Virus record (IMG/VR): IMGVR_UViG_3300008266_000461
Location: 1 to 23,971 of that record
From: a virus
Reading direction: 5' to 3' (one strand)
DNA: 23,971 nt
Positions within the stretch are counted from its first letter, which is position 1. Every line of letters starts with the position of its first letter. Below the pieces are notes generated by a model. That model saw only the letters and a program-made list of their open reading frames with translations. It did no database searches and had not been told where the DNA came from. A program made the position numbers and the translations under genes. Of this stretch, positions 18,382-23,971 are shown piece after piece.

Positions 18382-19314
18382 ATGTCTTCATTCAAAAAGC
18401 TAAGCAAATCAGACGTGTCAGTTGTACAATACCCTGCTAATAAGCAGTGGAATATTGCTTCTTCTTCTTTTTCTAGTTATTTAAAAATATATCAAGGTTC
18501 CAATATTACCGGTGCTTTTTCAACTAGTGAAACTACTACTGCTGATAATCAATATCAAAGATTAATATACTCTCAAATAAATCAATTATATTATCAAACC
18601 TATATTTCTCCCCTAAACACATCTTCACTAGCAAATTCAATATACTATGAATCTGCTTCTCAGCAACGCCCAACTGCTTCTTATTTTATATATAATGATA
18701 AAAAAGAATTAATAAAAAATTATCCAACAGGAGTAAATGAAACTGTTCAAGTAATATCTGTTAATCAAAATGTATATGGTAATAAAATATTACCTACTAC
18801 TTTTATTATGTCTTCTTCTGTTTATTTTATTGTTGATGACGGATACGGTAATCTTGTAGATTTAAGAGGAGATATAGATAGATATATTAATATTAATTAT
18901 TTTGATTATGAAGGTTATTTTGTTGAAAATGTAGTAACTCCTGAAAATTATATAGGGAATATATTTTATGCTCAAGGATTAGCTGTTATAACAAATCAAG
19001 AATTATCAACAGCTCCTGAAACAAATGGCTGGCAAATTTCTTTTAAAAATGAACATACTATTTATGAACATGAAGTGCGTTGTTTAGTAAAAGAAAGTGA
19101 TTTTAATTTATCTTACAACCCATCACTTATAACAGGCAGCTACACAGGTAGTGTTTTAAGAGACTTTGCTACTGGTTCTGATTTTTATACTTATGCTACT
19201 GCTTTAGGATTATACAATGATAATAATGAATTATTAGCTGTAGCTAAATTTGGTAAACCCATGTTAATGTCTCCTGACACTGACATGACTTTTGTTGTGA
19301 AATATGATACCTAA
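18382..19314 (+). CDS. Fibre-type structural protein B (paralogue pair)
   Basis: A 310-residue beta-rich protein beginning MSSFKKLSKSDVSVVQYPAN. The middle contains a distinct acidic stretch (VDDGYGNLVDLRGDIDRYIN, about 152-171). Its end carries LYNDNNELLAVAKFGKP, homologous to the end of protein A. The gene follows protein A after 3 nt. Its 3' end is overlapped by 11 nt by the GIY-YIG endonuclease gene in another frame. From memory, proteins with this N-terminus are virion components of marine T4-like phages. The function as a fibre or adaptor is inferred. Confidence 0.65.
   Translation: MSSFKKLSKSDVSVVQYPANKQWNIASSSFSSYLKIYQGSNITGAFSTSETTTADNQYQRLIYSQINQLYYQTYISPLNTSSLANSIYYESASQQRPTASYFIYNDKKELIKNYPTGVNETVQVISVNQNVYGNKILPTTFIMSSSVYFIVDDGYGNLVDLRGDIDRYININYFDYEGYFVENVVTPENYIGNIFYAQGLAVITNQELSTAPETNGWQISFKNEHTIYEHEVRCLVKESDFNLSYNPSLITGSYTGSVLRDFATGSDFYTYATALGLYNDNNELLAVAKFGKPMLMSPDTDMTFVVKYDT
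19216..19250 (+). repeat. 35-bp exact direct repeat, copy 2
   Basis: Identical over 35 nt to 18280-18314, in frame in the second fibre-type gene. Confidence 0.85.
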
Positions 19315-19735
19315 ATGGAAAAGTTGGGACACACCTAATCCCGAAAAATATTATGGTTTTGTTTATAAAATTACCAATCTAAAAACAGGTAAATTTTATA
19401 TTGGTAAAAAAGTATTTTGGAATAATAAAAAACACAAACTCACCAAAAAACAGTTAGCTGAACAAACAGGCCCAGGCCGTAAACCAACTCACGAAGTAAT
19501 TCGTACTGAAAGTAATTGGCAAAAATATTGGGGCTCAAATAAACAATTACTTGCTGATATTAAAGAACACGGTGAGGAAAATTTTGAGCGTTGGGTTTTA
19601 ATACAATGCAAAACCAAAAAAGCATTAACATATTACGAAATGCATTTCCAGTGTAAAGAAGAAGTTTTAATTGGAAAGGACAGATCATATAACGATAATA
19701 TATTAGGTAAATTCTTTACTAAAGACTTGTTGTAG
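19304..19735 (+). CDS. GIY-YIG endonuclease (Seg-like)
   Basis: A 143-residue single-domain nuclease. The GIY-YIG core is present as YGFVYKITNLKTGKFYIGKK (17-36), with the first element written YGFVY and the second FYIGKK. The basic region 40-63 (KKHKLTKKQL and PGRKPTHEVIR) contributes to DNA binding, and SNWQKYWGSN (66-75) is a further conserved element. Cyanophages and pelagiphages carry similar free-standing enzymes, often considered homing endonucleases that spread their flanking DNA. It starts inside the end of the upstream fibre gene (11-nt overlap) and ends 26 nt before the primase gene. I cannot see whether it is a mobile homing enzyme or a domesticated host-DNA nuclease. Confidence 0.85.
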   Translation: MIPKWKSWDTPNPEKYYGFVYKITNLKTGKFYIGKKVFWNNKKHKLTKKQLAEQTGPGRKPTHEVIRTESNWQKYWGSNKQLLADIKEHGEENFERWVLIQCKTKKALTYYEMHFQCKEEVLIGKDRSYNDNILGKFFTKDLL

Positions 19736-19761: not shown

Positions 19762-20703
19762 ATGGATAATACAGCTCTCCTATTTTTAGTGGAATCCGTA
19801 CTAGGCAAAGGACAATCTACAAGCAAAGGTAACTATGCTTTTAAATGTCCCTTCTGCACCCACCATAAAAACAAAATGGAAATTAACTTACGTACTACTG
19901 AAAAACGTGAGAATTTTTGGCATTGTTGGGTGTGTGGTGCTAAAGGTAAATCGTTGCTTTCATTATTTAAGAAAATTAAAGCACCACAAAATAAAATTGC
20001 TGAATTAAATATTTTAATAGTCCCTAACAAGAAAGAAATTAGTATATCTTCAGATATACTTGAACTTCCTAAAGAATTTATATCTTTTTCAAATATAACT
20101 GAAGATAGAATTATACAAATTGAAGCAAAACATGCTTTGAAATTCCTTAAAAAACGTGGTATAACACAAAACGATATTATAAAATATAATATTGGTTTTT
20201 GTAAAGAAGGTAAATATGAAGGTCGTGTTATTATACCTTCATACGATGCTAACACTAAATTAAATTATTTTATAGCACGTGACTATAAAGAAACATCATC
20301 ACAAAAATATAAAAATCCTCCTGCATCCGCTAAAGATGTTATCGGGTGGGAGTTATTTATAAATTGGGATGCACCAATTATTCTTGTTGAAGGAATATTT
20401 GATGCTCTCACTATTAAACGAAATGTTATTCCTTTATTTGGTAAAGTAATACACGGTAAGTTAATGGAAAAATTAGTTAAAGCCTCTGTTGATAGAATTT
20501 ATATTGCTTTAGATGCTGACGCTAGGCGCGATGCTTTGAAACAAGCTGAAATGCTTATGTCGTATGGTAAAGAAGTATACCTTGTTGAAATGGAAGGTAA
20601 AGACGCTAATGAAATTGGTTTTGAACAATTCCTTAACACTCTTGAGCAAACAAAACCTCTGAATTTACAGAGCTTGCTTGAGAAAAAATTACAATTAATA
20701 TGA
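19762..20703 (+). CDS. DnaG-type primase (CHC2 zinc finger and TOPRIM)
   Basis: A 313-residue primase of the T4 gp61/DnaG class, which makes RNA primers for lagging-strand synthesis. The zinc-binding domain is at residues 28-61: C29PFC32 and C55WVC58, with H35 nearby. A middle DnaG-like catalytic-core segment follows (RVIIPSYDANTKLNYFIARD, 155-174). The TOPRIM domain has the metal-binding glutamate E210 (ILVEGIFDAL) and the D251xD253 pair (IALDADARRDA), then KDANE. It is about the length of T4 gp61 (342). It starts a packed replication cluster, overlapping the methyltransferase gene by 4 nt (ATGA). No helicase domain is fused, and no helicase is present in this window. Confidence 0.9.
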   Translation: MDNTALLFLVESVLGKGQSTSKGNYAFKCPFCTHHKNKMEINLRTTEKRENFWHCWVCGAKGKSLLSLFKKIKAPQNKIAELNILIVPNKKEISISSDILELPKEFISFSNITEDRIIQIEAKHALKFLKKRGITQNDIIKYNIGFCKEGKYEGRVIIPSYDANTKLNYFIARDYKETSSQKYKNPPASAKDVIGWELFINWDAPIILVEGIFDALTIKRNVIPLFGKVIHGKLMEKLVKASVDRIYIALDADARRDALKQAEMLMSYGKEVYLVEMEGKDANEIGFEQFLNTLEQTKPLNLQSLLEKKLQLI

Positions 20704-21254
20704 TAGAAATTTTAAATTACACCCCAATTGAAAGAGACAACCCAAAAGTACTAAATGTAATTACTGCTTGGGGAGATATTCCAACTATTTTAAAAGATTT
20801 AATTAAAAAATTTAATATTAATACTGAAAAGGCTCTTGAGTTTGGTGTACATCATGGATATTCAACTTCTGCTTTGGCAAATTATTTTAAAGAAGTAGTA
20901 GGAGTAGATACTTTTGTAGGGGATATTCATGCTGGAATAGAAGATAATTTTTTTGAAAGAACAAAAAATAATTTAAAAGATTATACAAATGTAAAATTAA
21001 TTGAATCTTCTTATCAAGATTATATTTTAAACAAAACCGAAAAATATAACCTAATTCATATTGATATAGTACATACATATGAAGATACTTATGCTTGTGG
21101 AGAATGGGCTGTGAATAATGCTGATGTTGTAATATTCCATGACACTGAATCCTTCCCAGAGGTAAAACAAGTATGTATAGATTTAGCAACAAAATACAAT
21201 TTATCTTTTTACAACTATTATCCTTCTCATGGGTTGGGTATCTTAACTAAATAA
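20700..21254 (+). CDS. Class I SAM-dependent methyltransferase
   Basis: A 184-residue protein with a Rossmann-type SAM domain: motif I ALEFGVHHGYST (45-56), acidic motif II VVGVDTF with D70, and LIHIDIVHTYEDTY (118-131) with VVIFHDT (143-149), the pattern of Methyltransf_24-like enzymes that modify small molecules or sugars. There is no DNA-methylase (D/N)PPY motif, so it is unlikely to be a DNA adenine/cytosine-N4 methylase. It is coupled to the primase (4-nt overlap) and lies 10 nt before the nuclease gene. Possible substrates are nucleotides, surface glycans or a protein; the sequence does not say. Confidence 0.8.
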   Translation: MIEILNYTPIERDNPKVLNVITAWGDIPTILKDLIKKFNINTEKALEFGVHHGYSTSALANYFKEVVGVDTFVGDIHAGIEDNFFERTKNNLKDYTNVKLIESSYQDYILNKTEKYNLIHIDIVHTYEDTYACGEWAVNNADVVIFHDTESFPEVKQVCIDLATKYNLSFYNYYPSHGLGILTK

Positions 21255-21264
21255 TATTATTACT

Positions 21265-22050
21265 ATGATTGATAGACACGTTAATGTCATAAAAGACCCT
21301 AAAATTAAGCGCATCGTTGAATATACCCAGGGAGATAAGCAAGTAAATGTTTTAGATTCTCGATTTTACAGACGCAACGACAAATATTACCCCTCAGTAA
21401 CATCAGTACTAAATTATTTCCCTAAAAATCAATTTTTCCATAATTGGTTAAAAGATGTAGGACACAATTCAGATATCATTGCTTCAAAAGCAGCATCCGA
21501 AGGTACACAAGTACATACTGCTATTGATCGTTTTTTGAATGGTGAAGAAATTAATTGGTTAGATGAAAACGGAAGAGCAGAATATAGTTTAGAAGTTTGG
21601 AAAATGATTCTTAAATTTGCCGCATTTTGGAACACACACAAACCAGAACTAATTGCTACAGAATACCATTTATTCTCAGACGCTCACGAATATGCTGGTA
21701 CTGCTGACTTGATTGTTAGATTAAATGATCAAGTTTGGTTACTTGACATTAAAACATCAAATTCACTTCATACATCATATGATTTGCAATTAGCAGCATA
21801 CGCTGTTGCTTGGAATGAAACACACGATACTCTTATTGAACGTACAGGTATTTTGTGGTTAAAAGCAGCTACTCGTGGTGAAGGTAAAAAAGATGCAATT
21901 CAAGGTAAAGGATGGCAATTAAAATCATCAGACAATATTGCTACTAATTTTACTATGTTCAAAAATATATATGAAATTTATAAGCTTGAAAACCCAGATT
22001 TTAAGCCTATGACGGAGTTATTACCCACGAGTATTAAACTAAATGGATAA
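21265..22050 (+). CDS. PD-(D/E)XK (RecB-like) nuclease
   Basis: A 261-residue nuclease of the PD-(D/E)XK superfamily, RecB/Cas4-type. The motif series is visible: H84 in EGTQVHTAID, E133 in ATEYHLFS, D148 in GTADLIV, D161-I-K163 in LLDIKTS, and the Q-x3-Y motif Q175LAAY179. D148, D161 and K163 would bind the catalytic metal. There are no Cys clusters for an iron-sulfur site as in Cas4/AddB. In T4-like phages such enzymes act as exonucleases in recombination, replication or host-DNA degradation. The gene follows the primase and methyltransferase, indicating a replication/repair module. Confidence 0.9.
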   Translation: MIDRHVNVIKDPKIKRIVEYTQGDKQVNVLDSRFYRRNDKYYPSVTSVLNYFPKNQFFHNWLKDVGHNSDIIASKAASEGTQVHTAIDRFLNGEEINWLDENGRAEYSLEVWKMILKFAAFWNTHKPELIATEYHLFSDAHEYAGTADLIVRLNDQVWLLDIKTSNSLHTSYDLQLAAYAVAWNETHDTLIERTGILWLKAATRGEGKKDAIQGKGWQLKSSDNIATNFTMFKNIYEIYKLENPDFKPMTELLPTSIKLNG

Positions 22051-22055
22051 TACGT

Positions 22056-22082
22056 ATGCGTGAAACAAAATCACTCGTTTGA
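22056..22082 (+). CDS. 8-codon leader ORF overlapping the receptor start
   Basis: ATG at 22056 opens an 8-codon ORF (MRETKSLV) whose TGA (22080-22082) overlaps the TTG at 22079, giving TTGA. This geometry is that of stop-start reinitiation. It may let a weak TTG start be used, or hold receptor expression low. There is no other evidence that it is translated. Confidence 0.35.
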   Translation: MRETKSLV

Positions 22083-23971
22083 AACATTTATTATTCTTGT
22101 TGTTGTGTCCTTTATTTTTATTTTCTCAAGACACATTATTTAACAAAAAATTAGACAATATTACGGTTCGTTCCGTAACTAAAAAAGAAACTAACGTAGC
22201 TGTTCTTAACACAATTAGGAACAGCTCCGTTGTTTCTGATGGACTATCAGTTGAATTTATTAAAAAAACACCAGATCGTACAGTAGGTGATGCTCTTAAA
22301 AGAGTAAATGGTGTTACAATACAAAACGATAAATTTGTATTAGTACGTGGTTTAGCTGATAGATATAATTTAGCTTTACTAAATAAAACCTACTTACCAT
22401 CAACTGAACCTGATCGTAGAGCATTTTCATTTGACATTATACCTTCAGGGTTAATAGATAATATAATTGTAGCCAAATCAGCTACTGCTAATTTACCTGG
22501 AGATTTTGCAGGTGGTGTTATTCAAATTGCTACTAAAGATGTTTCTAGCAATTTTTTCTCCTTAAGCCTGGGGTTAAGTTATGGAATGGTGTCTACGTTT
22601 CAAAAATTCAACTTGGTGGAATCTATTCAGTTCCCTTCAATGTTCCCTTCTACTTACAAATACCGCATAAGTAGTAATGGAGACAAAAGAGCATACACCA
22701 AGTCAATTAATTCACCTCAGGCTAAACAATTTATATCTATTCCTAATACAAATGGATCTTTATCTTTTGGTTTAAAGAAAAACAATTGGAATTTCTTATT
22801 TAGCTCTACCGCTAGAAATACTTATTCTTTAAATTATATAGATAGACAAGATTATCAATCATCAACCGAATTAGCATATAAGTATAAAGATACGCTATTT
22901 ACTAAAACAACACTATTAAACGGTTTAGCTAATATCACTTATACAGGTAAAAACAAATATAGTTTAAAAACATTATTTAATCATCAAATTGAGCAATCAT
23001 ATTTGACTCGTAATGGTGAAAATTATGATAATGTTCAAAATGTAAGAAGTAACTCTTCTAACCACATTATTAAAACTGTTATAAACTCACAATTTGAAGG
23101 TAAAATTAAAACATTAGATTTTAACTTAGGTTATAATTTAATGTTACGTGATCAACCTGATTATAGAGTAAATCCAATTACAAAATCGTTAGGTATAAAT
23201 GAACTTTATGCTGTAGCATGGAGAGACACATACCGTTTTTGGAGTGTAATGGATGAAAATAGCTTTAATGGTAATTTAAATAAATCATTTAATAAAATTA
23301 AAGTTGGTGGCGGTTATCTTAAAAGATTAAGAAATTTCAAAGCCAGAATATTCAGATATGAAGCAGCAGATATGCTAAATGAAATTACAAACAATACAGA
23401 CAAATATGTAGCTGATTTTGATTTAGCAAATGGATATGTGATGTATGATAATGAGTTCGGAAAATGGAAATTAAATACTGGTTTAAGAACAGAATACAAT
23501 TTATTTAATGTACAAACAGCTGATTTTAGCGGTACAAAAATTAATGTAAATAGAAAGTATTTAGATGTTTTACCATCATTAAATTTATCTTATAATTTAG
23601 ATAAAACTAAATACCGCTTATCAGCTAGTAAAACATTATCACGTCCTGAATTTAGAGAAGTAGCTAATTTTGCTTACTATGATTTTGTTCGTAACGCACA
23701 ATTATTAGGTAACCCTAATTTAGAAAAATCAGACATCTATAATTTAGATCTTAAATATGAATTTTACCCTAAATCAGGTGAAAATATATCTGTAGCTTTA
23801 TTTGGTAAAAACTTCATTAAACCAATTGAGCAAATTGTAGCAGACGGTTCTGTACCCTCAAATTTACTTTTATCATTCACCAACCCCAAATCAGCTATAA
23901 TTTATGGTGTTGAATTTGAAATTCGTAAAAAAGTAAATGAGTGGTTAGATTTTTACACAAATACAGCTTTA
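22079..23971 (+). CDS. TonB-dependent outer-membrane receptor (3'-truncated by window)
   Basis: An open frame of 631 codons that runs off the window without a stop. No ATG is available: an in-frame TGA lies at 22061, so TTG 22079 is the best start, giving the signal peptide [16 protein letters not shown] before QD. A TonB-box-like NITVRSV (about 25-31) precedes a complete plug domain: [51 protein letters not shown] and [13 protein letters not shown]. The rest is alternating beta-barrel sequence, including the [14 protein letters not shown] barrel element. This matches Bacteroidetes TonB-dependent receptors, which import siderophores, vitamins or glycans and also serve as phage receptors. The N-terminal carboxypeptidase-regulatory-like domain common in Bacteroidetes members is absent. 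Its presence behind phage replication genes is highly unusual. Confidence 0.85.

Follow-up and report, generated by a model that had tools for sequence, protein, structure and literature searches.

A TonB-dependent receptor (TBDR) gene at the end of a myovirus fragment and the beta-helix lipoprotein gene that follows it in relatives probably constitute a phage auxiliary cassette for outer-membrane phosphorus uptake during infection, the viral counterpart of a receptor-lipoprotein pair that cells induce upon phosphate starvation. The DNA analysed (the window), a linear fragment, comprises all 23,971 bases of an IMG/VR record. The initial annotation had recognized the receptor; it missed the two-gene cassette, its movement among phages and its phosphorus context.

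The receptor reading frame (22079–23971, plus strand) starts with a TTG codon, as it does in the related contig L002, and is free of stops over 631 codons up to the contig end, which cuts the gene. It represents the 5' 631 of about 748 codons, or around 84% of the gene, full-length relatives having 748 residues. The signal peptide in the initial annotation is borne out by inspection (17 residues, 22079–22129, with a conserved hydrophobic N-terminus), while its TonB box is best regarded as a candidate, the motif LDNITV at residues 25–30 (22151–22168), also found by inspection. Pfam matches are to the Plug domain PF07715 at residues 53–147 (22235–22519; 2.4e-8) and to the barrel family OMP_b-brl_3, PF14905, at residues 392–629 (23252–23965; 4.7e-24). 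A structure model of a full-length relative, of moderate quality (pLDDT 65), was matched by Foldseek to the TonB-dependent transporters FoxA and FecA with E-values of about 1e-18; Pfam and this model agree on the architecture of a TonB-dependent receptor, a plug before a barrel of the 22-strand type. Between the window and L002 receptors dN is 0.014 and dS 0.251, which argues that the frame is under selection and rules out a decaying fragment, in keeping with the initial description of an open, undecayed frame 28 nt after a phage nuclease gene.

Full-length receptors come in a short form of about 748–760 residues and a long form of about 825–850. The extra N-terminal domain of about 77 residues, carboxypeptidase-regulatory-like (CarboxypepD_reg-like, pf13715), is found in the long viral forms and in Aquirufa and is missing from the window receptor and the other short forms. 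PHROGs contains no family for the window receptor, PDB sequence searches with the receptor, the lipoprotein and PlcP as queries returned nothing useful, and neither did searching the window for Rfam families and tRNAs.

Upstream of the receptor, the window is a myovirus segment with baseplate genes, a SegE-like endonuclease, a DnaG-type primase (19762–20703, plus strand), a methyltransferase and a PD-(D/E)XK exonuclease (21265–22050, plus strand). The latter, matching phrog_298 (7.5e-39), is the nuclease of the initial annotation and forms the 5' border of the insertion slot. In L002 (97% identical), the order is primase, exonuclease, receptor, lipoprotein and then homologues of the phage genes gp089 and gp088. 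Among cultured phages, Flavobacterium phage immuto has the exonuclease nearest to that of the window (54.8%); there, gp089 and gp088 come directly after it with no insert, and the site is empty in other phages too. L002 has the insert and immuto has none, so the junction at 22050 is a slot for insertions within the phage backbone. As might be expected of a chimera, a prophage edge or host contamination breaking at about 22050, this linear contig ends within a gene, but the independent contigs L002, L003, L005 and L080/L094 share the junction, with phage genes resuming after the cassette, and empty sites exist in immuto and others. These observations refute an artefact or prophage edge, the probability of which we consider negligible, and uphold the initial assignment of the receptor to the phage. 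By this comparison of gene orders, the receptor is a genuine phage-borne gene and its junction is real. A host-type gene in a phage backbone, missing in related phages and under selection, it has the attributes of a phage auxiliary metabolic gene.

Used as a query against viral contigs, the receptor found 79 loci with 69–97% identity; among 84,980 bacterial and archaeal species, each represented by one genome, the only close match was in Aquirufa antheringensis (69%). In all 69 loci that reach beyond the receptor, a lipoprotein gene of about 400 codons lies next to it, overlapping it by 4 nt in 63; in the 14 loci without it, the contig stops at most 39 nt past the receptor, and the window's own partner gene would likewise fall beyond the contig end. 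The partner proteins begin with a lipoprotein-type signal sequence and have no Pfam or NCBIfam match. The AlphaFold2 model of the lipoprotein is beta-rich (pLDDT 85, pTM 0.86) and resembles right-handed beta-helix proteins, pectate lyase among them, too weakly (TM 0.40, E about 0.01) for an activity to be named. A SusCD-type glycan importer was considered and rejected: there is no SusD, and the partner lacks a Pfam match and has a beta-helix-like fold.

At a 95% identity threshold, 41 non-redundant receptors sit between 33 different flanking-gene pairs, and 16 of the 25 long cassette-bearing contigs contain a terminase gene (15), a T4-type Gp23 capsid gene (14) or both. The gene contexts indicate that the cassette is mobile and has moved among many phages. 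Median dN/dS, for pairs with dS of 0.2–1.5, is 0.146 for the receptor and 0.151 for the lipoprotein. Were the cassette a passenger, i.e., neutral host DNA caught by chance and without a role in infection, broken copies would be no surprise, and in one 182-kb contig (L070, 10001–12155) the receptor frame is indeed interrupted by a 92-nt deletion, either an inactivated copy or an assembly fault. The dN/dS of about 0.15, the conserved two-gene structure and the repeated insertion into unrelated gene contexts nevertheless make a passenger very improbable. In one phage context, a Nol-like carbamoyltransferase gene (phrog_1601; L018, 13829–15508) is located near the cassette.

A tree with host receptors, a check proposed in the initial annotation, groups the viral copies and Aquirufa into a single clade (100/100) that has a long stem; Aquirufa lies inside the viral clade as sister to six viral copies (98/93). 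Apart from a transfer from phage to Aquirufa, as this nesting would suggest, two host-to-phage transfers are also possible.

The slot after the exonuclease has alternative occupants. A search with the exonuclease yielded 80 loci, 38 of which have cargo directly after it. Nine hold the receptor, so that the nuclease-receptor adjacency pointed out initially recurs in other phages, and one holds a lipoprotein variant alone. Sixteen contain a GT2 gene, a PlcP-like gene or both, one of them together with the receptor; the GT2 and PlcP-like metallophosphoesterase pair is present in L083, L087, L089, L094, L103, L118, L126, L138 and others. Twelve have a large TBDR of 986–1121 residues with OMP_b-brl_4 and PF13620 domains (L099, L105, L115, L123, L125, L135 and others), some cut by contig ends, and one has a Porin_O_P gene, annotated as a phosphate-selective porin (L102, 10827–12005), whose product shares 65% identity with the porin encoded in the Aquirufa pitA operon. 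The large TBDRs are tied loosely to phosphorus by the pf13620 domain that they have in common with the low-phosphate-induced Fjoh_3841. The phage PlcP-like proteins are 42–47% identical to one cellular PlcP, encoded near an alkaline phosphatase, and retain the metallophosphoesterase motifs. In cells, PlcP and a glycosyltransferase allow glycolipids to substitute for phospholipids under phosphorus stress (PMC4796936), and the phage pair is possibly a membrane-lipid remodelling operon of this kind, differing in that its glycosyltransferase is GT2-like rather than Agt/GT4 or GT28.

The cellular counterparts have a phosphorus neighbourhood. Directly after the compact pair of A. antheringensis (L161, 9647–13397) come genes for an AlkP-superfamily protein and for a phosphate transporter of the PitA type; genes for a phosphonate HD oxygenase, an alkaline phosphatase and a TIGR03364 oxidoreductase lie nearby. 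This compact form is present in only three of 38 Aquirufa genomes; most of the others contain a native lipoprotein about 48% identical to it. In the sister genomes examined, the native pair (L244, L251) occupies the same chromosomal position in the phosphorus island as the compact pair does in A. antheringensis and in L242, from a near relative; therefore, the compact pair appears to have replaced the native one in place. Of the 241 genomes of the order, 190 encode lipoproteins of this type, beside a TBDR in all loci viewed. For cell homologues outside the genus, a canonical phosphorus gene lies near 8 of 34 loci, compared with 1 of 40 random windows from the same genomes (p 0.0095), the set of neighbours scored (Pst, PhoBR, Porin_O_P, NptA, Ppk/Ppx) having been partly picked after the loci were seen. 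As 26 of these 34 distant homologues have no phosphorus neighbour by the same test, the wider receptor family may serve several ligands.

Among the closest described systems is the low-phosphate TBDT/FII lipoprotein pair Fjoh_0545/Fjoh_0546 of Flavobacterium johnsoniae (PUSIV, phoBR operon), in which the TBDT and the lipoprotein are upregulated by log2 values of 8.0 and 9.9 upon phosphate depletion and are not induced by nitrogen or iron depletion (PMC8115612). Fjoh_0545 has pf07715, pf13715 and pf14905 domains and Fjoh_0546 is an IPR011050 lipoprotein; related lipoproteins are homologous to a low-phosphate lipoprotein of Caulobacter (PMC8115612), namely ElpS, which is located at the surface and produced under phosphate starvation (PMC2996285). 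In both systems, the gene of a Plug and OMP_b-brl_3 receptor precedes that of a surface lipoprotein with a beta-helix (IPR011050-like), and both have a phosphorus gene neighbourhood in cells. The likeness is one of domains and gene order, with homologues beside PhoB/PhoR-type genes (L281, L283, L287) standing in for the F. johnsoniae sequences. The cassette differs in being phage-borne, compact (about 748–850 plus 400 residues) and present in many phage contexts, and the window form also in being without the N-terminal CarboxypepD_reg-like domain and without promoter repeats.

Upstream of the cell pairs, TTAACAT-like heptamers recur once every 11 bases. An 11-base period is the spacing of PhoB boxes. 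The strict pattern TAAYA-N6-TAAYA-N6-TAAYA has just three sites in the 2.5-Mb A. antheringensis genome (none in the reversed control), located before the plcP-glycosyltransferase genes, the pitA-porin genes and the compact cassette. A matrix built from five cell promoters, none of them from compact copies, gave a median score of 8.1 for the promoters of phage receptors located elsewhere than in the exonuclease slot, against −1.0 for 207 further upstream regions on those contigs (p 9e-13), with a signal peaking at period 11. For 26 non-redundant phage upstream regions (less than 70% identity), the mean was 5.95 compared to 0.50 ± 0.61 for dinucleotide shuffles (z 8.9); the reversed-sequence control gave weaker separation than the shuffles (p 0.015). 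Copies in the exonuclease slot, including the window lineage, have only 27–42 nt upstream of the receptor and no 11-bp repeats in them; in the window, 28 nt (22051–22078, plus strand) separate the exonuclease stop from the receptor start, and they are without the Pho-box-like repeats of most other phage copies. A Pho linkage, through regulon genes or Pho-box-like repeats, is seen for Aquirufa and for most of the phage copies that lie elsewhere than in the exonuclease slot, but not for the window lineage, which must rely on phage transcription since the repeats are missing there.

Import of another substrate, such as an iron chelate, cobalamin or a glycan, would agree with the receptor fold, which is common to siderophore transporters, including XusA, the partner of the surface lipoprotein XusB, with the weak resemblance of the lipoprotein to pectate-lyase-like beta-helices, and with the interpretation of the TBDR of megaphage Mar_Mega_1 as a carbohydrate importer (PMC9723777). 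It is unlikely, as close host copies lie in phosphorus islands behind Pho-box-like promoters, the F. johnsoniae counterpart responds to phosphate depletion and not to nitrogen or iron depletion (PMC8115612), and a SusD partner is absent. Among the roles suggested in the initial annotation, altered nutrient uptake is the one favoured by the host phosphorus context and the promoter sites.

The other suggestions, receptor masking, exclusion and decoy, found no supporting evidence in our analysis. TBDRs are common phage receptors, and a phage copy that replaced or masked the host receptor could block the adsorption of other phages; the short form of several phage branches, from which the N-terminal domain is missing, shows that phage copies are structurally modified. 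Yet the lipoprotein partner is retained in every locus that extends past the receptor, the promoter sites match those of phosphorus genes, and the slot also hosts lipid-remodelling enzymes and a phosphate porin, which would be unfit for such a role. Exclusion of other phages is possible as a side effect; as the main function it would leave the lipoprotein, the promoter sites and the alternative slot occupants unexplained, and we rate it slightly below import of another substrate.

For phosphorus uptake, the preferred role, the following course can be envisaged. Upon infecting a phosphorus-limited cell, the phage would place the receptor and lipoprotein in the host outer membrane, in the window lineage by expressing the cassette through phage transcription. 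The lipoprotein may bind a phosphorus-containing ligand at the cell surface or help to process it, and the receptor would import this ligand using host TonB energy. The imported phosphorus would supply the synthesis of phage DNA, a phosphorus-rich molecule. The surface location, the ligand, its transport, the benefit to the phage and PhoB binding are what we infer. A wider scheme, credible but put forward tentatively, is that a widespread group of Bacteroidota myoviruses keeps interchangeable phosphorus modules (TBDR plus lipoprotein, OprP-like porin, PlcP plus glycosyltransferase) in a post-exonuclease hotspot, that other phages put the cassette under host PhoB, that the envelope of the starved cell is rebuilt, and that the compact cassette went from phage to Aquirufa, replacing the native pair.

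To our knowledge, phage phosphate genes described so far work at the inner membrane, within the periplasm or as regulators; what is new here is the level of action, the outer membrane, in Bacteroidota phages and by exchangeable modules. In Synechococcus viruses, pstS and genes related to it have pho boxes (PMC10976474). These cyanophage genes and the cassette are both phage copies of host phosphorus-uptake genes, many with host Pho-type promoter sites, whereas those described here concern the outer membrane (TonB receptor, surface lipoprotein, OprP-like porin) or lipids. A survey of phosphorus genes in soil phages covered 17 functional genes, and the terms TonB, porin and plcP are absent from its main text (PMC10987575). 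The initial statement that no established phage system built on a whole TBDR is known needs narrowing: such receptors, SusC-like and read as serving carbohydrate uptake, have been reported in Mar_Mega_1 and LR745206, with no lipoprotein cassette described (PMC9723777), but in open-access papers we found no phosphorus-linked phage TBDR. The LR745206 and window receptors are 28.6% identical. If the proposed role is correct, a phage receptor and the surface lipoprotein paired with it carry viral control of nutrient uptake to the outer membrane, control of phage genes by the host Pho system extends from cyanophages to Bacteroidota phages, and viruses become linked to membrane-lipid remodelling under phosphorus limitation. 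The cassette also offers a route to what the abundant, uncharacterised low-phosphate TBDT/lipoprotein pairs transport.

Three further features of the window were observed. A Methyltransf_24 gene (20700–21254) between the primase and the exonuclease is missing in L002 and immuto, a gene-order difference that marks it as a second cargo insertion in the slot neighbourhood. The gene at 19304–19735 encodes a GIY-YIG SegE-type endonuclease, relatives of which are labelled "NAD synthetase" in phrog_447 and immuto, apparently a misannotation. Finally, the region 487–1740 contains copies of a 49-nt repeated leader with TATAAAATTAAAACGTATGA and a hairpin-like ACGGGGC-AAGCCCCGT, located 5' of several small open reading frames; these are probably phage promoter/terminator units.
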